A stretch of 59,618 nt of DNA from a virus, in IMG/VR virus record IMGVR_UViG_3300017963_000302, positions 1 through 59,618 of that record; one strand, given 5' to 3'. Position 1 is the stretch's first letter; each line of letters begins with the position of its first letter. The notes under the pieces are model-generated. The model searched no databases. It was not told the DNA's origin and saw only the letters and a list, made by a program, of their open reading frames with translations. Positions 347-58,273 of the stretch are shown here, piece by piece. Position numbers and translations under genes: made by a program.

Positions 347-706
347 TTAAATTTTCTTTAAGAGCTTCAAGATACCGTTTCGGATCTCTTCTTCATTTTT
401 TGCTCTTATATTGAATTTTTTTCTATTATTCAAAGAGAGGCAAATGTAAGCAAAGTCATTCGCTGATTTTGCACTTATACTTATCGTGAAATAATCATTG
501 TGAAATGCTTTATCATGAAAAATCACCCTCCATATTGGGACTTTGATAGTACCATATATTTTTGAGAGAGTAAAAATAGACTCATCAGCGTTGTTCACAA
601 CCCAATTGAGAGAATCTTCAATTGGATGCTTCCATTTATTCGCTTTGAAAGGAGGATTGTTCTCGAGTCTATCGATCGTTGACTTTATTTTGTTTTTTAA
701 TGTCAT
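347..706 (-). CDS. Hypothetical protein (119 aa)
   Basis: First gene of the leftward operon, with a good ribosome site (GGAGA about 5 bases before the ATG at 704-706). The product has an N-terminal basic helical part (MTLKNKIKSTIDRLENN), a central aromatic beta-rich stretch (residues about 45-80) and a Lys-rich C-terminal helix ending LLKKI. No signal peptide or membrane segment is seen and I do not recognise a family. It faces away from the terminase operon, so the roughly 100 bases to its right should hold divergent promoters. Small leftward genes like this are often early host-takeover genes, but that is only inference. Confidence 0.6.
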   Translation of the reverse strand: MTLKNKIKSTIDRLENNPPFKANKWKHPIEDSLNWVVNNADESIFTLSKIYGTIKVPIWRVIFHDKAFHNDYFTISISAKSANDFAYICLSLNNRKKFNIRAKNEEEIRNGILKLLKKI

Positions 707-810
707 AGTGTCTCCAAATTCTTCTTAAATTGTCTCATTACGGGCCATCCTGTTTCCATAAATTCACCTTTTTGATTTTTTATTTTCTATTTATTTTGAT
801 AGGAATATTT
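707..810. promoter_or_regulatory. Divergent intergenic region before the terminase operon
   Basis: This short gap separates the leftward operon from the rightward packaging operon and is very T-rich on the + strand. A weak rightward sigma70-like candidate is a TTGATT hexamer near 772-777 followed 17 bases later by TTTGAT. No strong hairpin is seen. Promoters for both directions must lie here or inside the flanking genes, but neither is convincing by eye. Confidence 0.3.
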
Positions 811-933
811 ATGTCATTAAATAAGCAGTATGTCAACACAAAAATAGATATTCACAAAAACAAAAATTGTATTTTTGATTTTAATGAAATACCTTTAAAG
901 ATAAGTATTAATTTTGAGGTAATAAATGAATGA
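811..933 (+). CDS. Small hypothetical protein before the terminase (40 aa)
   Basis: The frame is open from 730, but the ATG at 811 is preferred because it has AGGAA about 6 bases upstream and because the upstream extension would be an unlikely hydrophobic Phe-rich segment. The product begins MSLNKQYVNTKIDIHKNKNC. Its stop overlaps the terminase start (926) by 8 bases, so translation is probably coupled. In many phages the small terminase subunit sits here, but this protein is far too short and shows no helix-turn-helix, so I do not call it that. Confidence 0.5.
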   Translation: MSLNKQYVNTKIDIHKNKNCIFDFNEIPLKISINFEVINE

Positions 934-2761
934 CTTATTTGACAAAGATAAAGAAATCGAAAAAGGTGGTGTTAGTGGAAGCATTGCAAATGAATTAAGT
1001 GAAAGTCTTATTAATTTCGATGATTTATGCGATAGAGAATTAACAGACAAAGAAATTGAGCGTTTGAGTGATGTTGTGATGGAATATTGCCAGCGTCAAA
1101 GTGGCGTAGACCTTTATTCGTATCAATACGAATTTGGTTGGCGAATTGTATATTCAATTTTGGTTGAAGATGCAGAAGAGATAACGTCACTATTTTCGAG
1201 ACAATCTGGTAAAACGGAAACAACAGCTCTCGTTGTATGTGGTTGTTTAGTTATATTACCAATTCTTGGAAACATTTTTAAAGGCGATGAACGAATAAGT
1301 AAATTTGCAAAAGGTTTATGGGTCGGGATTTATGCACCAAATTACGAACAGAGTGGAATCATGTGGCAACGTATGAGGACACGAATGTACTGTGATTCAG
1401 CTAAAAAAATGCTTTTAGATAGTGATATCAATATTGACCTTAATGAATTAAGTAAAGACCTTTCGTTGCCAAATGGTAGTTTTGTATTTTGTGGAACTGC
1501 ATCACCACAAGCTAAGATAGAAGGTCGAACATTTCATGTTATTATAATCGAAGAATGTCAGGATGTTTTAGCTCATGTTATTAGAAGTTCAATTCATCCA
1601 ATGGGTAGTGCTACAGCTGCTACTATTATTAAAATTGGTACACCTTCTCGTGATAAAAATGAATTCTATTTAGCTTGTCAGCGTAATAAAAGACATGATG
1701 TAAGTAAAGGAATGGTTCGTGATAAAAAGCGTTTACATTTTGAATTCGATTACACGGTAGCTCAAAGATACAATAAACGTTATAGAAAATATGTTGAAAA
1801 AGAAATGCGTCGTTTAGGTGAAGACTCTGATGATTTCAAAATGAAATATCGTCTTCATTGGTTACTCGAGCGCGGTCTTTTTATTACTGAAGATTTATTC
1901 AAAGAGTGTGGAATTGATAATTCAAAACAACCATTGATTAAAGTTATTGGTAAGGGTAACAGAAAACAAAAGTTCAAATTTATCAGACCGTGCAGTGTTG
2001 TAACTCATGATTCTCACAATGAACACGTTGCTTCTATTGACGTTGGTCGATCAAATTCAACTGTTGTAACCGTCGGACGTGCATTTTGGGATGGTCCAAT
2101 TGAATATGCTGGTGAAGATAGATTTCCTATTCACATATCAAATTGGTTGGAGCTTTATGGTGATGATCATGAAGCTCAACACCCACAGATAATTAATTTC
2201 TTAAAGAACTATAATTTATCTTCAGTCATTGTTGATGCTACTGGTAAAGGAGATCCTATTTTTTCACGTTTAGCATCAGAACTTTATAAGTTTGATATAC
2301 ATGTAGTTTCATTCGTTTTCAACGAATACAATAAGGACATTGGTTATAAAATTTTACTGCAAGAATTACAAAATAAACGAATTACATATCCCGCGAGTGC
2401 ACATGCTACTAGAATGAGGAAATGGCAACGTTTCTATCAACAAATGACTGATTTAAGTAAAACATGGCGTGGTCAAAGAATGGTTGTATCGAAACCAAAA
2501 GGTGATGATGATGCAAAAGATGATTATCCAGATTCATTAATGTTATTGTGTTATTTGGTTAATGTTGCTGGTGATCAAGAGATTCAAGAGAGTATAAATC
2601 CTTTTGTTGGTCGTGCTGCTAGACAATTAGAAGCGGATAAGATGAGAGATTTCAGAGCTTGGTATAACAAAGGTATAAATAACCAAACAATTGTAACTAA
2701 TCCAAGAAGATATAACTATCTTAAAGGTTTAAGAAAAAGTAAAAGAGGTAAATGGGAATGA
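926..2761 (+). CDS. terL: Large terminase subunit (TerL)
   Basis: The DNA packaging motor: an N-terminal ATPase that pumps DNA through the portal and a C-terminal RNase H-fold nuclease that cuts concatemers. At 611 residues it is of normal length. The Walker A-like segment SRQSGKTETT is at residues 91-100, and a Walker B strand ending IIIEE is at about 206-210, followed by the coupling segment around IKIGTPS (about 236-242). The nuclease part has the expected acidic residues: ASIDVGRSN (about 376), SVIVDATGKGDP (about 434) and the late DDYPDSLML motif. It is followed at once by a small gene, a methylase and the portal gene. No small terminase subunit was identified nearby. The identification is firm from motifs and from position before the portal. 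Confidence 0.93.
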   Translation: MNDLFDKDKEIEKGGVSGSIANELSESLINFDDLCDRELTDKEIERLSDVVMEYCQRQSGVDLYSYQYEFGWRIVYSILVEDAEEITSLFSRQSGKTETTALVVCGCLVILPILGNIFKGDERISKFAKGLWVGIYAPNYEQSGIMWQRMRTRMYCDSAKKMLLDSDINIDLNELSKDLSLPNGSFVFCGTASPQAKIEGRTFHVIIIEECQDVLAHVIRSSIHPMGSATAATIIKIGTPSRDKNEFYLACQRNKRHDVSKGMVRDKKRLHFEFDYTVAQRYNKRYRKYVEKEMRRLGEDSDDFKMKYRLHWLLERGLFITEDLFKECGIDNSKQPLIKVIGKGNRKQKFKFIRPCSVVTHDSHNEHVASIDVGRSNSTVVTVGRAFWDGPIEYAGEDRFPIHISNWLELYGDDHEAQHPQIINFLKNYNLSSVIVDATGKGDPIFSRLASELYKFDIHVVSFVFNEYNKDIGYKILLQELQNKRITYPASAHATRMRKWQRFYQQMTDLSKTWRGQRMVVSKPKGDDDAKDDYPDSLMLLCYLVNVAGDQEIQESINPFVGRAARQLEADKMRDFRAWYNKGINNQTIVTNPRRYNYLKGLRKSKRGKWE

Positions 2762-3018
2762 AAAAAACTTTTCCAGTAAAAAAGGATCATTCAATTTTAT
2801 ATTGTATACATGTTAAGGAAAATGATATTGGTCATTTAATTGGATTTGATCCATCTATTGAAGTTTCTAATGGTGGTGAAATAATTCTTGCTGATGGCAT
2901 TATTATATGTACTAGTTGTTTACTAGAATATGAAAATAAAATGAAAGAAATACCAATAGGTGATTTAATTGTATACGAAGAAGATAGCTATCTCGCTATA
3001 TCTACAACACAGAATTGA
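2758..3018 (+). CDS. Hypothetical protein (86 aa)
   Basis: A small gene between terminase and methylase. Two ATG codons lie in frame at 2752 and 2758. I prefer 2758 because it overlaps the terminase stop as ATGA and has GAGG at a normal distance, while 2752 would leave only 3 bases. The product is a beta-rich, mildly acidic protein with one ICTSCLLEY segment (CxxC) near residue 60 that could hold half of a metal site. The downstream methylase start overlaps its end region. No family is recognised. A role linked to packaging or to the methylase is possible from position only. Confidence 0.6.
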   Translation: MKKTFPVKKDHSILYCIHVKENDIGHLIGFDPSIEVSNGGEIILADGIIICTSCLLEYENKMKEIPIGDLIVYEEDSYLAISTTQN

Positions 3019-3026
3019 GGTATTCC

Positions 3027-4016
3027 ATGTTATATTATGGAAACTGCTTAGATATACTTCGTGAAGTACCTAATAATTACTTTTCTACAGTAATAACTGA
3101 TCCTCCATATGGTATATCGATTTTTAGTAAAGATTGGGATAAAGATTTTCCTAATGAAACTATATGGAAAGAGATATTAAGAGTATCAAAACCTGGTGCA
3201 TTACTATTATGCTTTGGTTCTCCAAGGATTTATCATCGAGTTGCTTGTTCCATTGAAAATTCTGGCTTTAATATTAAAGATTGTCTGATGTGGTATTATA
3301 AATCGGGTATGCCAAAAGGAACTAACATTTCAAGAATGATAGATAAAAAATTGGGTTGTAAACGTCCAATTATTGGTTACCAAAAACTTACAGGTAATGC
3401 ATGCACTTCGTTTAAGGAAAAAGGTGGTAATTACGGAATAAGAGTCAAAAACACTCCACCACAAATAACACCTATAACAGGTCCATCTTCGGATGAAGCT
3501 AAAGTATGGGGTGAACAATTTACAGGATTAAAACCAGCATATGAACCAATAGTAGTTGGAATGAAACCAGTTGATGATAATTATGCAAAAAATGCACTTA
3601 AGTGGGATGTAGCTGGATATAATATAGAAGAATGCAGAACTGAAGGTCGTCACCCAGCTAATATCATTCTGAGTGAAGATGGAACTGATGAAAAAGTTGA
3701 TAACGATATTGGTGATATTGTAACAGAGATAGATGGCGTTGTTTATAAAACGAAAGCTTCTAGATTGTTCTATTGTGTCAAAGCTAATAGAAAAGAGCGT
3801 GGTATTGATAATATACATCCTACTGTGAAACCGATAAAATTAATGCGATATCTTTGCAGATTAACAAGACAACGTGGAAAGGATATTGTGCTTGATCCAT
3901 TTATGGGTTCTGGTACTACTGGAATTGCTGCTAAAATGGAAGGTAGGAAGTTTTTTGGAATTGAAATTGATCGTGATTACTTTGAGATTGCAAAAAAACG
4001 AATTGAACAGACATAA
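3027..4016 (+). CDS. DNA methyltransferase, beta-class (N6-adenine or N4-cytosine)
   Basis: A SAM-dependent enzyme that methylates an exocyclic amino group in DNA. The catalytic motif IV TDPPYG is near residue 25 and the SAM-binding motif LDPFMGSGTTG is near residue 290, followed by GIEIDRDY. This order (catalytic motif first) defines the beta class, and DPPY favours N6-adenine. HPTVKP before motif I is also typical. An in-frame TTG at 3015 is rejected because the ribosome site TTGAGG (3015-3020) sits 6 bases before the ATG at 3027. At 329 residues it is of normal size with a central variable region that would recognise the target. Sitting between terminase and portal, it may protect phage DNA from host restriction or mark DNA for packaging. 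No partner restriction enzyme is present. Confidence 0.88.
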   Translation: MLYYGNCLDILREVPNNYFSTVITDPPYGISIFSKDWDKDFPNETIWKEILRVSKPGALLLCFGSPRIYHRVACSIENSGFNIKDCLMWYYKSGMPKGTNISRMIDKKLGCKRPIIGYQKLTGNACTSFKEKGGNYGIRVKNTPPQITPITGPSSDEAKVWGEQFTGLKPAYEPIVVGMKPVDDNYAKNALKWDVAGYNIEECRTEGRHPANIILSEDGTDEKVDNDIGDIVTEIDGVVYKTKASRLFYCVKANRKERGIDNIHPTVKPIKLMRYLCRLTRQRGKDIVLDPFMGSGTTGIAAKMEGRKFFGIEIDRDYFEIAKKRIEQT

Positions 4017-43400: not shown

Positions 43401-43663
43401 TGTTTTATATTGGAGAAAAGAGGGTTTACGTTTGGGAATGTAGATGTGGAAATATGAATAAAAATGAATTGCATGTAGATGTGTTTTTAGGCAATAAACA
43501 TATAAAGAGTGTTATTTGTCCGATATGTTATAGAGAGAAACCATCTTTAATTGGTCGTGTTTTACGAAAAAAGGTGGACAGTATAAAGTCTGGTTATTCT
43601 TTTTTGCGTTCAATGATTAATGGTGATTTTTTTGGTGATATAAAAATACAGGAGATAAAGTGA
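43397..43663 (+). CDS. Zinc-ribbon-like hypothetical protein (88 aa)
   Basis: The first half carries CRCG (about residues 15-18) and CPIC (about 41-44), a CxC...CxxC spacing that can bind zinc. The second half is a basic helix (SLIGRVLRKKVDSIKSGYSF). The start overlaps the previous stop as ATGA. It could bind DNA or RNA, but no family is recognised. Its stop overlaps the GTG start of ThyX. Confidence 0.6.
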   Translation: MMFYIGEKRVYVWECRCGNMNKNELHVDVFLGNKHIKSVICPICYREKPSLIGRVLRKKVDSIKSGYSFLRSMINGDFFGDIKIQEIK

Positions 43664-45345
43664 CTAAATTAATTGAATCAAGTTATGAGATTTTAGAATA
43701 TCCAAGGAATATTCTAAAGCGCATCGAAATAGCAGCCAGGACTTGTTATAAAAGCGAGGATAAAATAACAGATACTAGTGCTGAAAAACTTGTTAGAAGT
43801 TTGATAAAACGCGGTCATATGGCTATGATCGAATTTGGCGGTGATGTTTCTGTAAAGTTTATATCGAACCGTGGTTTTTGTTACGATGATCAAACAGAAG
43901 TTTTAACTTATGATGGATGGAAAAAGTTTAAAGATATAAATGGGAATGACTTATTTTTAACCTTAAATATGGATACTAAAGAAGCAGAGTACCAAGAAAA
44001 AATTGGAATAACAATAGAAGACTGGGATGATGATCTTATTTGCGGTAAATCTACAATGGTAGATTTTGCTGTCACCCCAAATCATAGGATGGTTTGGTTC
44101 CATTATGATTCTAGAATTGATAAAAAATGGAAGGTTGATCAAGCAAAAGAAATATATGGAAGAAGAGTGAAGTTTAAAAGAGGTTTATTCAAAGAAATGC
44201 CTGATAGAACCTTATGTGAAGATTCTAAGTATCTCAATCTTCATCCGCAAATATCAACAATTCCGTTTGCTAAATTCATGGGTTTGTTTATAACAGATGG
44301 CACTTTATGGAAAGGTAAAGATTCTGGAGGAAGGGTTACTATTTGTCAGATAAAAGAATCTGGCAGAATTTATATTAAAACTGTGTTGGAAGAGCTTGGT
44401 TGGAAATATTCAGAGAAAAAAGATGGGTTAAGAATAAACGATACTAAACTATATAAGTTTATGAGAATATTTTTCCCATTAGATGAGAAGAAAACGTATA
44501 CTGGTAGAATCCCACATTTTATAAGGCATGCATCAAGAAAATACATTCAAGCATTTCTAGATGGTGCAATTGTTGGTGATGGAAATATTCATAAGACTAA
44601 TGGTCATAGAATAATATATACCGCCAGTCAGAAAATGGCTGGTGATTACCAAGAGTTATTTATGAAAGCTGGTTTTTGTGCATCGGTAAGAATTGATAAT
44701 AGAGTCGGGCGAAAAAGAGAAATCAAACCTGGTATAGTAATAGAGAATAAAGTGAGTCAATATGTTGTTTCTGTTACAGATAGAACTGATGAACACTTAT
44801 TCAATAAACAACATTGGAGCAAAGCTTATTATAAAGGCAAAGTCTATTGTGTAACAGTTCCGAATGGAACATTGTACGTCAGAAGAAATGGTAAAGCTTT
44901 TTGGTCAGGTAATACACACGAGATGGTTCGCCATAGATTATGTTCTTTTGCGCAGGAAAGTACTCGTTATTGTAACTATGGCAAAGGTAAATTTGGTAAA
45001 GAGATAACAGTTTGTTATCCACATGATATTATTGATATGAGGATACCAGATATATCAAATGGTCTTAGATGGGATATAATTTATAAAATACTTGGTTCGT
45101 GGAAAAAATCTGAAGAAGAATATCTTAGCTTGATTGAAATGGGTTGCCCTGCTGAGATTGCTCGTGAGGTTTTACCCATTGGTTTAAAAGCTGAAATAGT
45201 TGTATCTGCTAATGTTAGAGAATGGCGTCATATATTCAAGCTTCGTACATCTAAAAAAGCACATCCAAGAATGAGAGAATTAATGATTCCTCTTTTGTCA
45301 GACTTTAAATCTCTTATGCCAGTTGTCTTTGAAGATATTGAATAA
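43660..45345 (+). CDS. thyX: Flavin-dependent thymidylate synthase ThyX, interrupted by an intein
   Basis: ThyX makes dTMP from dUMP with FAD, NADPH and methylene-folate. GTG 43660 follows CAGGAGATAAA. After removal of the intein (residues 74-418) the mature enzyme is 216 residues. The N-terminal part has IEIAARTCYKSEDKITDTSA, and the C-terminal part opens THEMVRHRLCSFAQESTRYC, which contains the signature RHRxxSxxxxSxR, followed by the AKxEIVVSANVREWRHIFKL-type motif. The intein sits directly between NRGF and THE, in the conserved active-site segment, the kind of site inteins favour. With the dUTPase at 51929 it supplies dTTP for this AT-rich genome. Confidence 0.92.
   Translation: MTKLIESSYEILEYPRNILKRIEIAARTCYKSEDKITDTSAEKLVRSLIKRGHMAMIEFGGDVSVKFISNRGFCYDDQTEVLTYDGWKKFKDINGNDLFLTLNMDTKEAEYQEKIGITIEDWDDDLICGKSTMVDFAVTPNHRMVWFHYDSRIDKKWKVDQAKEIYGRRVKFKRGLFKEMPDRTLCEDSKYLNLHPQISTIPFAKFMGLFITDGTLWKGKDSGGRVTICQIKESGRIYIKTVLEELGWKYSEKKDGLRINDTKLYKFMRIFFPLDEKKTYTGRIPHFIRHASRKYIQAFLDGAIVGDGNIHKTNGHRIIYTASQKMAGDYQELFMKAGFCASVRIDNRVGRKREIKPGIVIENKVSQYVVSVTDRTDEHLFNKQHWSKAYYKGKVYCVTVPNGTLYVRRNGKAFWSGNTHEMVRHRLCSFAQESTRYCNYGKGKFGKEITVCYPHDIIDMRIPDISNGLRWDIIYKILGSWKKSEEEYLSLIEMGCPAEIAREVLPIGLKAEIVVSANVREWRHIFKLRTSKKAHPRMRELMIPLLSDFKSLMPVVFEDIE
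43879..44913 (+). mobile_element. Intein with LAGLIDADG homing endonuclease inside ThyX
   Basis: Residues 74-418 of the reading frame. It begins with Cys (CYDDQTEVLTYDGW, block A) and ends FWSGN before Thr of the extein. Block B is seen as DFAVTPNHRMV (about 135-145), and two LAGLIDADG motifs are FAKFMGLFITDG (203-214) and YIQAFLDGAIVGDG (295-308). The penultimate residue is Gly rather than His, and the +1 residue is Thr; both are known variants. The homing endonuclease could drive copying of the intein into uninterrupted thyX genes. Confidence 0.9.
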
Positions 45346-46436: not shown

Positions 46437-47285
46437 ATGTCTTGGTATCGAACTGGTAGAGAAGCAAAAGAAAGAATCAAGAGAGAGAAAGAGAAAAAAG
46501 AAAAGCGTAAAGAGGATCGCGAAAAATGGTACCTTCATCCATATGTTAGAATATGGATGCGTCCAGGACAAAAATTGACATGTACTTTTGTTGATGATAA
46601 TCATCATCCAGAAGGATATGATTGGCCGTATGAAGTGTGCGAACATCAGGTGAAAATAAATAATAATTGGGAAAATATTACATGCACAAAAGGTATGAAA
46701 GTTAAGGATTATTATCAAATACTTGGAACCAAAGATCCTTATGTGTTGAAAAGTGAAGGTATCATTGATGATATCAATAATTTTTCTGATAATGATAGTG
46801 TTGGTTGTGTTCTATGTGAACGCAGTTTTTATTCGTTTAGTATTGTTCCGAACACCGTGATAGATCATGAAGGTTGGGTAGATAAAGAAGGAATTCAGCA
46901 TTCCGATGTTCTTAAACTTTTGGTTGTAAAAAATTTAGGATATAGTCATCTTGAATCTCAAAGAGAAAAACGCGGTGGATTACGTGGATGCCGATTCGAG
47001 ATTGAAAGAATGACACCTGATTCTCCTAATACGGGAGACAAGTTTGATTTCGAGGGAAAAATAGAGTTGCCTGATGATATCCAACCAGCACCGTACAACG
47101 AAGTATTCAAACCTAAAACACCACGTGAATTAATTGAATTAATTGGTAATAGAAGAGGTGTTTCTAAATTTAATAAAAAGAACAAGAATGAAAATCAAAA
47201 AAATAATCAAGGCAATTATAGTAATACTAGTAATACTAATTATTCTAGTATTAGTAATAATGATAAAGATATTATTCCTTTTTAA
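46437..47285 (+). CDS. Single-stranded DNA-binding protein, gp32-like with SSB-type tip
   Basis: A 282-residue protein. A basic N-terminal arm (REAKERIKREKEKKEKRKED) is followed by a middle domain with Cys/His groups (YEVCEHQVK, ITCTKG, VGCVLCERS at about residues 60-127) that probably bind zinc as in T4 gp32, and by TPDSPNTGDKFDFEGKIELP. A low-complexity linker (about 245-275, Asn/Ser/Tyr) leads to the acidic end NNDKDIIPF, like the DDDIPF tip by which bacterial SSB recruits partners. It sits under the strongest promoter, fitting the need for many copies. Confidence 0.8.
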   Translation: MSWYRTGREAKERIKREKEKKEKRKEDREKWYLHPYVRIWMRPGQKLTCTFVDDNHHPEGYDWPYEVCEHQVKINNNWENITCTKGMKVKDYYQILGTKDPYVLKSEGIIDDINNFSDNDSVGCVLCERSFYSFSIVPNTVIDHEGWVDKEGIQHSDVLKLLVVKNLGYSHLESQREKRGGLRGCRFEIERMTPDSPNTGDKFDFEGKIELPDDIQPAPYNEVFKPKTPRELIELIGNRRGVSKFNKKNKNENQKNNQGNYSNTSNTNYSSISNNDKDIIPF

Positions 47286-47345
47286 TTAATATAAATAACT
47301 TTAGGGAATCGTCGTAAATAAAGTCGGCTTTTTTCTGGGTGTCAA

Positions 47346-49187
47346 ATGAATACATTGATAACAAACAGCGAAGAATTAATAGCTTTGACAAACAAAGTTT
47401 CTAATTTTGATAAAATTGGCATAGATTATCAAACAACCAGTTATTATACAGATAATAGATCTTGTAGTTGTATTGACAAAATGAAATTTGTTGGTTTTGG
47501 TTTAGGATTACCTGATGGTAGTAAATTTTATTGCCCATTAGGTCATAATAAAGGTTATAATATTTATGATTCTGTTGATTTGTTGAAGAAAATTTTCAAT
47601 GATAAGAATAAAATTGTTTGGTCTCATGATGTTAAGTTTAGTTCTATTGTAACAAAAAATATTGGAATTGAGTCGAATGTAACATGGAGGGATTCTAAAA
47701 TTGCGTGCTGGTTACTCGGTTATGGTGTTGGTAGGAATTTAAAACTGAGAGAGTTATTAAGATCAATATTCGATATTGGTGTTGTTGAATATAGTGAAAT
47801 TATACCGATGAAACAAAGGGCTCATGAGGTTAATCCTCAAGTTATGGCTAGTTATAGTTCTAATATGGCTTTGTGGAGTTTGATGCTTGGTGAACGTATG
47901 ATTCCTGAGTTGATTAAATTTGAAATAAATAAGGTATTTACTGACATTGAATGTCCGATTGCTTCAGAGGTTTTACCTCATATAAATGAAGTTGGTATTG
48001 GTATTGATAAAAATCTCTTAGTAAAATTGAGAGAATATTTAATTAATGAAAATAACAGGATAACAGAAGTTTTTGAATCGATTGTGGGGGTTGATATATC
48101 GTGCAATCAGTCTGTTAGTAGTAAATTGATTGATGAATTGAAGTGGTGGAAATTACCATCGAATATTAGGCGTGGTAGAAGTGGTTATTACAGTATTAAC
48201 CGTGATAATCGTAAATTGATATCAAGGGAATTGGACAAAAAGTCCCTTCCTTATAGGGTAATGCATTATAAAAATACGTTTGAAAAATATAAAAAGATAA
48301 TAAATACCTTTACAACAGGTTTGGTGAAAAAGGCAGAATTTAACGATGATGGTAGGATTAGAGCAGATTGTAGTCAGACTGATGTGGTTACTGGTAGGCT
48401 GGCATTTTCAAATCCAGCATTACAACAGATTCCTATTCGTTCAAAAGTAGGAAGTAAAATAAGAAAAGCTTTTATTCCTGATGAAGGATGGACTTTTTTT
48501 GATGCCGATTATTCTTGTGCTGATTTAAGGATGATTGCTTATCTTTCAAAAGATCCTGCTATGATTGATGTTTTATCTTATGTTGATAATGATTTACATT
48601 TAAAGACATCACAGGAGTGTGATTGTTCTAGGGATGAAGGGAAAAAAGCTAATTTAAGTTTAATCTATGAAGCAACACCCAAAACTCTTTCAAGATTATT
48701 GAATATTCCCATTGGAAGAAGTTGTGATATTTATGGTAAATGGCATAAAACTTATCCAGGTGTAAAGGAATATCATAAAAGGGTTCATAAATTTGCTAAA
48801 GAATATGGTTATATAAGAACCATAACAGGAAGAATTATATATATAAATGGTTTTGATTCATCAAATATTCAGGAACGGTTAAAAGCTGAAAGATGTGCAT
48901 CGAATTATCCTGGTCAAGGAAGTGTTGCTGATGTCATGAAAATAGCAATGCGAAATTTGATCAGAGATTGGAAAGATCGTGGTGTCCTTTATGATTATTA
49001 TAAAAAGACTGGTAAAGCGAAACTCAATTTAAATGTGCATGATGAGTTACTGGTTGAGCTCCGCAATGATTTTATAGATGAGGGATCCAATGATGTCGTT
49101 AGGCATATGAGTGATGCATTGAATCTTTGTGTACCGTTAGAGGTTAGTGGTGGTTTTGGTAAAAATTGGCTTGAGGCCCATTCATGA
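47346..49187 (+). CDS. DNA polymerase, family A, with degenerate proofreading domain
   Basis: The phage replicative polymerase, 613 residues, with an exonuclease-like N-terminal domain and a full polymerase domain. Motif A FDADYSCADLRMIAYLS (about residues 384-400; consensus DYSQIELR), motif B RDEGKKANLSLIYE (about 420-433) and motif C NVHDELLVEL (about 558-567) hold the two metal aspartates and the O-helix Arg/Lys/Tyr. The O-helix residue equivalent to E. coli Phe762 is Leu, and motif A Glu is Asp. In the exonuclease domain the DxE motif reads DYQ, NxxxD reads DVKFS and YxxxD reads YSSNM, so proofreading is probably lost. No strong ribosome site is seen (GGGTG). Confidence 0.92.
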   Translation: MNTLITNSEELIALTNKVSNFDKIGIDYQTTSYYTDNRSCSCIDKMKFVGFGLGLPDGSKFYCPLGHNKGYNIYDSVDLLKKIFNDKNKIVWSHDVKFSSIVTKNIGIESNVTWRDSKIACWLLGYGVGRNLKLRELLRSIFDIGVVEYSEIIPMKQRAHEVNPQVMASYSSNMALWSLMLGERMIPELIKFEINKVFTDIECPIASEVLPHINEVGIGIDKNLLVKLREYLINENNRITEVFESIVGVDISCNQSVSSKLIDELKWWKLPSNIRRGRSGYYSINRDNRKLISRELDKKSLPYRVMHYKNTFEKYKKIINTFTTGLVKKAEFNDDGRIRADCSQTDVVTGRLAFSNPALQQIPIRSKVGSKIRKAFIPDEGWTFFDADYSCADLRMIAYLSKDPAMIDVLSYVDNDLHLKTSQECDCSRDEGKKANLSLIYEATPKTLSRLLNIPIGRSCDIYGKWHKTYPGVKEYHKRVHKFAKEYGYIRTITGRIIYINGFDSSNIQERLKAERCASNYPGQGSVADVMKIAMRNLIRDWKDRGVLYDYYKKTGKAKLNLNVHDELLVELRNDFIDEGSNDVVRHMSDALNLCVPLEVSGGFGKNWLEAHS

Positions 49188-49201
49188 TAAAGGAGGTAAT
49201 G

Positions 49202-49402
49202 ATGGATTGTCAAAAATGTCCTTGGGTTCGTAGGGATCCAAACCAATTAGGTAACAGAATGAAAAATCAGGATAACAAAATTCAAGAATTAGAAAATAGA
49301 TTACATAAAATGGAGCGATTTTTATGTAATTCAAATGTAAAAGAATCAAAAGAGGATAATTCTGTAGAAGATGAATTTAATGATGATGATATTCCTTTTT
49401 AG
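49202..49402 (+). CDS. Small coiled-coil protein with SSB-like C-terminal tip (66 aa)
   Basis: ATG 49202 has AAGGAGG 5 bases upstream; an ATG at 49184 overlapping the polymerase stop is less likely. The product begins MDCQKCPWVRRDPNQLGNRM, followed by a coiled coil (QDNKIQELENRLHKMERFLC), then an acidic stretch ending DEFNDDDIPF, which is nearly identical to the tip of bacterial SSB. There is no OB-fold. The tip normally docks onto RecO, PriA, exonuclease I, RecQ and others. It may recruit or block host SSB partners or hold the replication proteins near the phage polymerase. Confidence 0.7.
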   Translation: MDCQKCPWVRRDPNQLGNRMKNQDNKIQELENRLHKMERFLCNSNVKESKEDNSVEDEFNDDDIPF

Positions 49403-49468
49403 TATTTATTATATTTTGTGTTCAAAATGTGATTTATTATTTGGGTTATATTATTAGGGTGAAAAAAA

Positions 49469-49981
49469 ATGAATAGGAAAGAATATCACGCAGATTATTG
49501 GAAAAAACACGGGAAAGAAATAACAGAAAAACGTAAAGAGAGATACCGCAAAGATCCGGAGTATCGCGAAAAAGCAAAGCAACGATCAAGAGAATTTAGA
49601 AATAAGATTGCTAAGAATAATTCTAAGAGTAAGATAGAAAAAATCAAAAAGGATTATATAATTTTTGATGTTATTTTATCGAATAATGAATCAAGGCAAA
49701 TTAAATGTTATCGGTTGAATTATATCGCTAAAATTCTCGAAAGATTGCCCAGGACTATATTAAGATGGGAGGAGAATAAAAAATGCTCTTTTCCTCGAGC
49801 GATGTATGGAAATAAAAGGCATCCTAGATTGTATACACAATTACAAGTTAATGAATTGGAAAGAATCTATGAAGAAACAAAATGTTTATATGGTTCTTTG
49901 ATTGTTAAAAATCAATTGAGTAATACTAATTTTTTTGATCGAGTAAATAAACTCTGGAAAGATCATCCAGAAGGGATTTGA
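49469..49981 (+). CDS. MerR-like DNA-binding protein
   Basis: A 170-residue basic protein. The N-terminal third is a very basic helix (MNRKEYHADYWKKHGKEITE, EYREKAKQRSREFRNK). Residues about 88-135 read RLNYIAKILERLPRTILRWE, then FPRAMYGNKRHPRLYTQLQV, a MerR-type winged helix-turn-helix. It lacks the C-terminal sensor helix with Cys of metal-responsive MerR proteins. It may regulate phage transcription or bind DNA structurally. The gap before it (49403-49468) is AT-rich with no clear promoter. Confidence 0.65.
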   Translation: MNRKEYHADYWKKHGKEITEKRKERYRKDPEYREKAKQRSREFRNKIAKNNSKSKIEKIKKDYIIFDVILSNNESRQIKCYRLNYIAKILERLPRTILRWEENKKCSFPRAMYGNKRHPRLYTQLQVNELERIYEETKCLYGSLIVKNQLSNTNFFDRVNKLWKDHPEGI

Positions 49982-49989
49982 GGGTTATT

Positions 49990-50349
49990 TTGGATAAAAA
50001 ATGTATGCCAGTGAAGAAGATTGTAAGTCGTCAGTTCAAAGAAGGTCGGCGCATCACTAAGTCTGATGACAATTGTGATGTTCTTGAGATTTTAGATTTT
50101 GAAACTGAACATGTTGCTCATACTACTGTTAAACTAGGATTAACAGTGTGTCCTAGGCAGTTTGAAAGTGTGAGACTTGACATTTCAGTTTCAGTTCCGC
50201 ATTATTTGGAAGAATCTGATAACGCTTTTTTATTCGCTTTGGATAAGTGTGAACAATACGTTTATAGTGCGCTTGGTGATGATAGAAAAGAGACGGCTCG
50301 CATTTTGGGTGAAAAAGCAAAACGGATTTTGAATGACGAAGAAAAGTAA
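49990..50349 (+). CDS. Hypothetical protein (119 aa)
   Basis: Two TTG starts are in frame. 49990 is preferred because GAGGG lies 5 bases before it, while 49978 would sit almost on its ribosome site. The product has a basic start (KKIVSRQFKEGRRI) and a beta-rich domain with HVAHTTVKLGLTVCPRQFES and VRLDISVSVPHYLEES, then helices. It overlaps the recombinase gene at its end. Small proteins of this kind occur beside recA-like genes of phages, without known role. Confidence 0.55.
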   Translation: MDKKCMPVKKIVSRQFKEGRRITKSDDNCDVLEILDFETEHVAHTTVKLGLTVCPRQFESVRLDISVSVPHYLEESDNAFLFALDKCEQYVYSALGDDRKETARILGEKAKRILNDEEK

Positions 50350-51547
50350 AAGAGATATATTGATACCATCTGATATAGATGGTGTTGCTGCAATAATCAA
50401 TAAAAATTTTGGCAAGGGCACTATACTTAGAGCTTCTGATGCTAAAAGTCTTAGAATCAAAAGAGTAAGTTTTGGTGTTTTTGCTCTAGATATTGCTTCA
50501 GGAGGTGGTGTCCCTAGGGGTAGAATCACCATGCTTCATGGTGATAAATCTACTGGAAAATCTTGTATTGCGATGAAAATAGCTGCTGAGTTTCAGCGTT
50601 GTGATAGGTTAACAGGTAAACCGTATTTGAGAATAGATAGTGGTGGTGAAATTGAAGAGCTTGATTTTGGTAGGAGTGGTGAACCTCAACCAATGAATGT
50701 TGTTTGGGTTGATTTGGAACACACCTTTGAAATTGATTGGGCTAGAAAATGGGGTATTGATACAGATTATCTTTATGTGGTTCAACCAGCTTCTTCGGAA
50801 GAAGCTATTGATATTTGTGATGGTCTGATTAGATCTAATAAATGTGACTTAGTAATTGTTGATTCTATAGCTGCACTATCACCAAGTGCAGAAATAGAAG
50901 GTGCATCTGGCGAAGTTCATATGGGTCTTAATGCTAGATTGTTTAATCAGGCACTAAGAAAATGGACTTCAGGATTGAATGCTTGTGGTTTACTTTCAGA
51001 AACTCAATGTTCAATTGTGTTGATAAATCAATTTAGATTAAAAATAGGTGGTGGTGTTGTTTATAAAACAACACCTTGTGGCGAAGGACATAAATATTTT
51101 GCATCTATAGAGATAGTATTTACAAAAAAGGATTTTATCAATGATCCAATAACTAATCGTCCTATTGGTATACTGGTTGAATTTATGTTCAAAAAAAACA
51201 AAACAGCACCTCCTATGAGAGGTGGTCAATATGAAATTTATTTTGTCAATTCAGATACGAATGATGGCATAGGTAGCACTGGTGAAATTGGACAGATTTT
51301 TGATTTTGCGAAGTATTGGGGGTTAATTAAGAGTAGTGGTAAATGGGTTAGTTTTAATCCTCCAATTGTCAAAGAATCTATAAAAATAGATGGTAAGAAA
51401 AAGACTATTGAATTTTTATATAATCATCCAGAAATAGTCTCTAAATTAAAAGAGCAAGTGTTAGATTTGGAATATAAATGGCGCGAAGAAGGAGTAACAC
51501 CTGTTTCAATTGGTTATGAAGAAGATATATCTAATGAAAAAGCGTAG
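50333..51547 (+). CDS. RecA-like recombinase (UvsX-type)
   Basis: Binds single-stranded DNA and promotes strand exchange. The 404-residue protein has the RecA core: FALDIASGGGVPRGRITMLH before Walker A GDKSTGKS (about residues 69-76), NVVWVDLEHTF (about 122-132), Walker B DLVIVDSIAAL (about 165-175), and the loop and final strand SIVLINQFRLKIGGG (about 226-240). The N-terminal helix domain is short and a Lys-rich C-terminal tail follows. An insertion after Walker A (LTGKPYLRIDSGGEIEELDF) is unusual. It overlaps the upstream gene and the nuclease gene downstream. Confidence 0.92.
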   Translation: MTKKSKRDILIPSDIDGVAAIINKNFGKGTILRASDAKSLRIKRVSFGVFALDIASGGGVPRGRITMLHGDKSTGKSCIAMKIAAEFQRCDRLTGKPYLRIDSGGEIEELDFGRSGEPQPMNVVWVDLEHTFEIDWARKWGIDTDYLYVVQPASSEEAIDICDGLIRSNKCDLVIVDSIAALSPSAEIEGASGEVHMGLNARLFNQALRKWTSGLNACGLLSETQCSIVLINQFRLKIGGGVVYKTTPCGEGHKYFASIEIVFTKKDFINDPITNRPIGILVEFMFKKNKTAPPMRGGQYEIYFVNSDTNDGIGSTGEIGQIFDFAKYWGLIKSSGKWVSFNPPIVKESIKIDGKKKTIEFLYNHPEIVSKLKEQVLDLEYKWREEGVTPVSIGYEEDISNEKA

Positions 51548-57556: not shown

Positions 57557-58273
57557 ATGAATGGTTTAATATTTCTTCCTGATAGAAATACTAAAAGGGA
57601 TAAAAAAACTGGTAAGTTGAAACCTGATTATACGGGTGCGTTTTTGCCTGAAGCAATAGCTTTTTCTAAACATCATTCTATCGAGTCATCTAATATTGTG
57701 GAAGTGGATGTTTCTTTGCGAAGAAGAGACATGCGTAATTTTATTTGCGATAAAATAAAAGAACACGAATCACCTTTAGATGTTGTTGCATTTTTTTGTC
57801 ATGGTTTGAAAAATTCCATACAGCTTGGATTTAGTGTTCATAATTTAAGTATGTTAATTGATGCTATGGAAAGCAGAGTAATGCCAGATGTTGTGATTGC
57901 ATTATTTTGTTGTAGTGCTGCGAGGGATTTAGACAGCGAAATTCAAGACGATAAAAGTGTCAATGTTATATCTGGCGATGGTGGATTTGCAGATACATTT
58001 CGTGATTTACTTTGTAAAAAAACCAATGCTATTGATTGTAGAGTGGTTGCACATGTTACGGCTGGTCATACTACCATTAATCCATGGGTTAAATATTTTG
58101 ATGGGAATGGATCCAAAACCGGTGGTTATGGTGGAAAATGGTTGGTAGAGCCAAAAAGTAGGTTGTGGAAAAAATGGATACGTGTTCTAAAAAATAAGAA
58201 CTCTTTATTAAGATATAGATACCTATTTTATTCCATTGCTCGTGTAAGAATGGAATTAGAAGGTAAAAAATGA
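57557..58273 (+). CDS. Candidate caspase-fold (clan CD) cysteine protease
   Basis: A 238-residue protein with a His-Cys pair in caspase order: DVVAFFCHGLKNSIQLGF (His82 followed by Gly) and, 36-37 residues on, DVVIALFCCSAARDLDSE (Cys118 or Cys119, then Ser). The hydrophobic strands before both residues match the hHG...CxSA layout of CHAT and other clan CD peptidases. The later GDGGFADTFRDLL with VVAHVTAGHTTINPWVKYFD fits further strands and a substrate loop. No partner is obvious. It could cut a phage or host protein late in infection. This is a motif-based call without database support. Confidence 0.5.
   Translation: MNGLIFLPDRNTKRDKKTGKLKPDYTGAFLPEAIAFSKHHSIESSNIVEVDVSLRRRDMRNFICDKIKEHESPLDVVAFFCHGLKNSIQLGFSVHNLSMLIDAMESRVMPDVVIALFCCSAARDLDSEIQDDKSVNVISGDGGFADTFRDLLCKKTNAIDCRVVAHVTAGHTTINPWVKYFDGNGSKTGGYGGKWLVEPKSRLWKKWIRVLKNKNSLLRYRYLFYSIARVRMELEGKK

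Follow-up and report, generated by a model that had tools for sequence, protein, structure and literature searches.

The C-terminal tip of SSB is the main hub signal in bacterial genome maintenance. In a 59,618-nt stretch of viral DNA (IMG/VR record IMGVR_UViG_3300017963_000302, here called the window), this tip ends a 66-aa protein encoded directly behind a DNA polymerase gene. What would a phage do with an SSB tip on a small protein that is not an SSB?

The 66-aa gene and its product

The 66-aa gene is located among replication genes on the plus strand, in a block that also encodes SSB, PolA and UvsX. It starts 14 nt past the polymerase stop codon. The features of the block are as follows.

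46437-47285, plus strand: phage SSB with a predicted gp32-type fold, ending DKDIIPF (alignments, predicted fold)
47256-47282, plus strand: tip extension NNDKDIIPF, beyond the point where members of the SSB family usually end (alignment of 16 SSBs)
47346-49187, plus strand: family A DNA polymerase with a 3'-5' exonuclease domain (Pfam PF00476, 1.7e-74; PF01612, 1.8e-06)
49191-49196, plus strand: Shine-Dalgarno AGGAGG, spaced 5 nt from the ATG at 49202 (read from the sequence)
49202-49402, plus strand: 66-aa protein with a CxxC N-terminus, helix, acidic linker and DDDIPF end (ORF and sequence; AF2 helix 13-43)
49208-49219, plus strand: CxxC, residues 3-6 (sequence)
49238-49330, plus strand: predicted helix or coiled coil, residues 13-43 (AF2; heptad test)
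49382-49399, plus strand: SSB-type tip DDDIPF, residues 61-66 (sequence; chance estimate)
49469-49981, plus strand: putative transcriptional regulator, the next gene downstream of the 66-aa gene (phrog_19880, 2.9e-08)
50333-51547, plus strand: UvsX/RecA-like recombinase (Pfam PF00154, 1.5e-56)

The ORF encodes MDCQKCPWVRRDPNQLGNRMKNQDNKIQELENRLHKMERFLCNSNVKESKEDNSVEDEFNDDDIPF; a start at one of the in-frame ATGs further upstream (49199 and 49184) would lengthen the product to 67 or 72 aa. Its putative coiled-coil core (L16, M20, Q23, I27, L30, L34, M37 and L41) has 4-3 spacing, with hydrophobic a/d positions and a heptad score of p = 0.00085 against shuffles. Single-sequence AlphaFold2, which is informative for the helix only and silent on oligomeric state, predicted one helix at residues 13-43 (mean pLDDT 91-92 for residues 21-40). 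The net charge changes from +3 (residues 1-43) to -7 in the acidic tail (residues 44-66). The original prediction, a short coiled coil with an acidic linker and an SSB tip, encoded after the polymerase, was thus borne out on each point. The N-terminal CxxC had been absent from that reading.

The last six residues match those of the E. coli SSB C-terminus (SSB-Ct, MDFDDDIPF) exactly; E. coli serves as a reference here and may not be the host. The protein has the DDDIPF of a bacterial-type SSB at its stop codon and lacks the OB-fold domain, since the model is a single helix with no strands. At E<=1, neither PHROGs nor Pfam gave a match to an SSB family. The 66-aa protein is therefore not an SSB, in agreement with the original reading.

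Relatives and chance expectation

Searches of phages, plasmids, PHROGs, Pfam, viral contigs and genome contigs returned a single relative, encoded on the twin contig IMGVR_UViG_3300017971_000307, which was identical across the 13,477 bases compared. Scanning for the start MDCxxCPW added nothing beyond this twin. The 66-aa protein thus appears to be an orphan in the collections searched. A Clostridioides difficile phage match (E 3) was a chance match, and the sole PHROG match was phrog_21949 at E 0.25, which does not place the protein in PHROG 1811. Small genes also occur close to this position in syntenic relatives, namely Delepquintavirus DLP5, Rhodobacter RcZahn, Rhizobium RHph_TM16 and Y1_11; none of these genes encodes a tip or a product resembling the 66-aa protein by eye.

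Three other observations concern gene content. Between the SSB and regulator/UvsX genes (46437-51547), the family A polymerase gene takes the position held by an SF2 helicase gene in Delepquintavirus. A ThyX-like thymidylate synthase gene at 43660-45345 is apparently interrupted by an intein; it matches phrog_85 in two stretches (the best covering residues 419-560). The 238-aa protein encoded at 57557-58273 contains the motifs FFCHG and FCCSA, which on visual inspection are reminiscent of a caspase-like or CHAT-type protease.

Given the amino-acid composition of the window, the chance that a gene ends in exactly DDDIPF is 3.7e-8, which comes to about 3e-6 over the ~75 window genes. For a relaxed SSB tip the figure is 1.8e-5 per gene, and for a pair of such genes in the window about 9e-7. 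Among all window ORFs, only the SSB at 46437 also ends in such a tip. The two tips have nearly the same codons, but codon bias can account for this (p about 0.15; codon-shuffle test, 0.30), so that nothing beyond it supports a tail copied from one gene to the other.

The phage's own SSB

The SSB at 46437 was aligned with four isolates and, separately, with fifteen viral-contig relatives (16 sequences including the window SSB); identities were 23-30%. Residues H70, C83, C124 and C127, compared with the zinc site of gp32, were invariant in 16/16 aligned sequences. A PDB sequence search with the alignment profile gave no match. Foldseek with the model from the second alignment returned RB69/T4 gp32 as the top five PDB matches (best E 4.6e-04, prob 0.99), with low TM-scores of 0.29-0.41 that speak for the fold type only. 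By predicted structure, the SSB has a T4 gp32-type fold, and its DKDIIPF end is as originally described.

Nearly all relatives finish in a family motif (DYSKEL, DYSNEL, SLKSQL or similar). At this position the window SSB reads NYSSIS, followed by NNDKDIIPF. One further relative ends in an SSB-like tip, TEDDDPLF (L162, 9598-10455), apparently acquired independently. Judged from these alignments, an SSB-type tip is unusual within this gp32-type family. No small tip-bearing protein was seen in the loci of the SSB relatives.

Two unrelated proteins of one phage, the 66-aa protein and the gp32-type SSB, bear an SSB-type tip. A shared partner would be the simplest reading of this pair.

SSB tips on other viral proteins

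Viral contigs were scanned for DDDIPF followed by a stop codon, with at least 120 matches. The permuted control, DDDPIF-stop, gave 2 in the whole collection, and hence the tip-bearing genes are not chance matches. Canonical SSBs, recognised with a profile built up from the E. coli protein, made up 32 of the 120 matches listed (21/80 and 11/40), and many of the remaining ones resembled other phage SSB families. Family searches also picked out evident non-SSBs among the matches listed: an Erf annealase (L034; PF04404, 4.2e-27), three SF2 helicases (L052, L086 and L094; phrog_16), a polymerase processivity factor (L083; phrog_947, 2e-45), a primase-helicase C-terminus (L120; phrog_239, 1.8e-48) and Pam3 gp34-like proteins (L030 and L048). 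The identified non-SSB carriers among them were mostly DNA replication or recombination proteins. SSB tips on non-SSB phage proteins thus occur far above chance. In L030 (3791-6162), as in L048, a primase ending MNDDIPF adjoins the gp34-like protein ending DDDIPF, giving two tips in one phage.

Two kinds of small carrier come closest to the window protein. Marine phage proteins of PHROG 1811 are small and have no OB match, and at least six of them end in DDDIPF (L025, L039, L050, L082, L131 and Pelagibacter phage HTVC033P). They differ from the window protein in their unrelated sequence and in having many members without the tip. Within PHROG 1811, related proteins of different phages have or lack the tip, so in this family it is not essential to the function of the rest of the protein. 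The second carrier, encoded on L139 (1087-1284, minus strand), is likewise 66 aa long, has no family match and ends in DDDIPF, but shows no similarity to the window protein by eye and lacks the CxxC start. Its gene comes immediately after one for a Sak4-like annealase (phrog_124, 8.8e-16), which in turn follows an exonuclease gene. The whole row (452-3356: exonuclease, Sak4-like annealase, 66-aa tip protein, 61-aa gene, 147-aa gene) looks like a compact recombination module with its tip on a separate small protein.

Known uses of the tip

In E. coli, binding pockets read the terminal Phe, penultimate Pro and Asp residues of the tip: a hydrophobic pocket recognises the Phe, a basic lip the carboxylate and a basic ridge the Asp residues; removal of the Phe abolishes binding (PMC10164576, PMC10018359, PMC10238739). 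Tip peptides alone bind RecG (3.1 uM; PMC10164576) and RecO (K about 1.2e7 per M; PMC10018359) and stimulate the RadD ATPase (PMC10238739). A tip without an OB fold therefore suffices for docking. As in bacterial SSB, the window tip sits on an acidic, presumably disordered tail, but its carrier is a helical protein of 66 aa with no OB fold or detectable ssDNA-binding domain.

Phages exploit such tails too. Sak4 of HK620 requires the tip of its cognate SSB (NDYPPF), a case of a phage tip recruiting a phage recombination protein, although the tip in that case belongs to an SSB (PMC5928155). The host range of phage annealases depends on whether they recognise the SSB C-terminus (PMC10711431). The T7 gene 4 primase-helicase resembles the window protein in having an acidic C-terminal tail with a terminal Phe on a non-SSB replication protein; its tail, in which the Phe is essential, contacts T7's own DNA polymerase, whereas the window carrier is tiny and has the exact bacterial tip (PMC12230644). 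Hna was considered as a defence reached via the SSB tip and was set aside, as the passages found on it do not mention the SSB C-terminus (PMC13381803).

Among open-access papers, none was found that describes an SSB tip on a phage protein other than an SSB. The earlier statement that no phage example had been described thus agrees with this literature. It does not extend to the databases, where unannotated examples exist, and the window protein is not unique.

A proposed tip-presenting adaptor

We favour the view, with a probability of about 0.5, that the 66-aa protein is an oligomeric adaptor, one that offers SSB tips to DNA enzymes of the host (or phage) that bind them. We infer that its helix oligomerises, probably into a parallel dimer or trimer, which would display several acidic DDDIPF tails at once. 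These tips would dock into the SSB-Ct pockets of genome-maintenance proteins, the most likely partners being host RecO, RecQ, PriA, RecG, RadD, ExoI or DnaG. The protein may bring its partners to the phage replication/recombination complex or regulate them there, and the gp32-type SSB, with the same kind of tip, may use the same partners. Since tip pockets bind peptides alone, an oligomerising helix with a tail should dock to them, and a docking role is plausible because tips on non-SSB phage proteins are so much more frequent than expected. The exact match to the E. coli tip, the tip of the phage SSB, the permuted control, the parallel in L139 (together with the need of HK620 Sak4 for an SSB tip) and the position in the replication block all count in favour of the adaptor. 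Orphan status and the variable tip of PHROG 1811 count against it.

Alternatively, the 66-aa protein could be made in excess to fill host SSB-Ct pockets and keep host enzymes off phage ssDNA. We consider such a decoy, whose targets might be repair helicases, nucleases or defence nucleases acting through SSB, unlikely. The sufficiency of a free peptide for RecG, RecO and RadD (PMC10164576, PMC10018359, PMC10238739) fits a decoy, and the strong Shine-Dalgarno and small gene would permit high expression. However, at the micromolar affinity reported for RecG, a decoy would need to outnumber host SSB tails, and blocked pockets would disconnect the phage SSB as well. Two points favour recruitment over sequestration: a decoy would also cut off the phage SSB, whose tip is of this type, and the non-SSB carriers identified elsewhere are for the most part functional proteins of replication or recombination.

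It is similarly doubtful that the tip serves inside the phage replisome, binding the phage polymerase, primase, helicase or recombinase at a site that SSB and the 66-aa protein compete for or share. The T7 tail sets a precedent (PMC12230644), and both the position behind the family A polymerase gene and the related tip of the phage SSB agree with it. A purely internal contact, however, needs no exact bacterial tip, and relatives with a similar replication block have a different SSB tail, DYSxEL. No known SSB-Ct-binding family was detected in the subset of window proteins run against Pfam and PHROGs, which also speaks against a partner within the phage.

Least probable is a functionless tip, arisen by accident at the end of an orphan ORF or as a relic of recombination from an SSB gene. 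The missing homologues are in its favour, and the similar codons, being within codon bias, are neutral; the low chance expectation, the well-placed Shine-Dalgarno, the heptad regularity, the SSB's own tip and the permuted control weigh against it.

Implications

Although the SSB tip itself is known, no description of it on a free small phage protein lacking an OB fold, or on phage non-SSBs generally, was found in open-access papers. At even odds, we propose that it is a portable docking tag, added many times to unrelated replication and recombination proteins of phages (annealases, helicases, primases, processivity factors, tiny helical proteins and phage-type SSBs). The window protein would then be this tag at its simplest, an oligomer that does little more than present tips in trans. 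Screening unannotated small phage genes for a tip at the stop codon offers a cheap sequence rule for detecting such proteins, and natural tip presenters of small size could be used to probe or block SSB partners. If phages do graft the SSB tip onto non-SSBs, they would have a simple means to capture or block the repair, restart and defence enzymes of their hosts.
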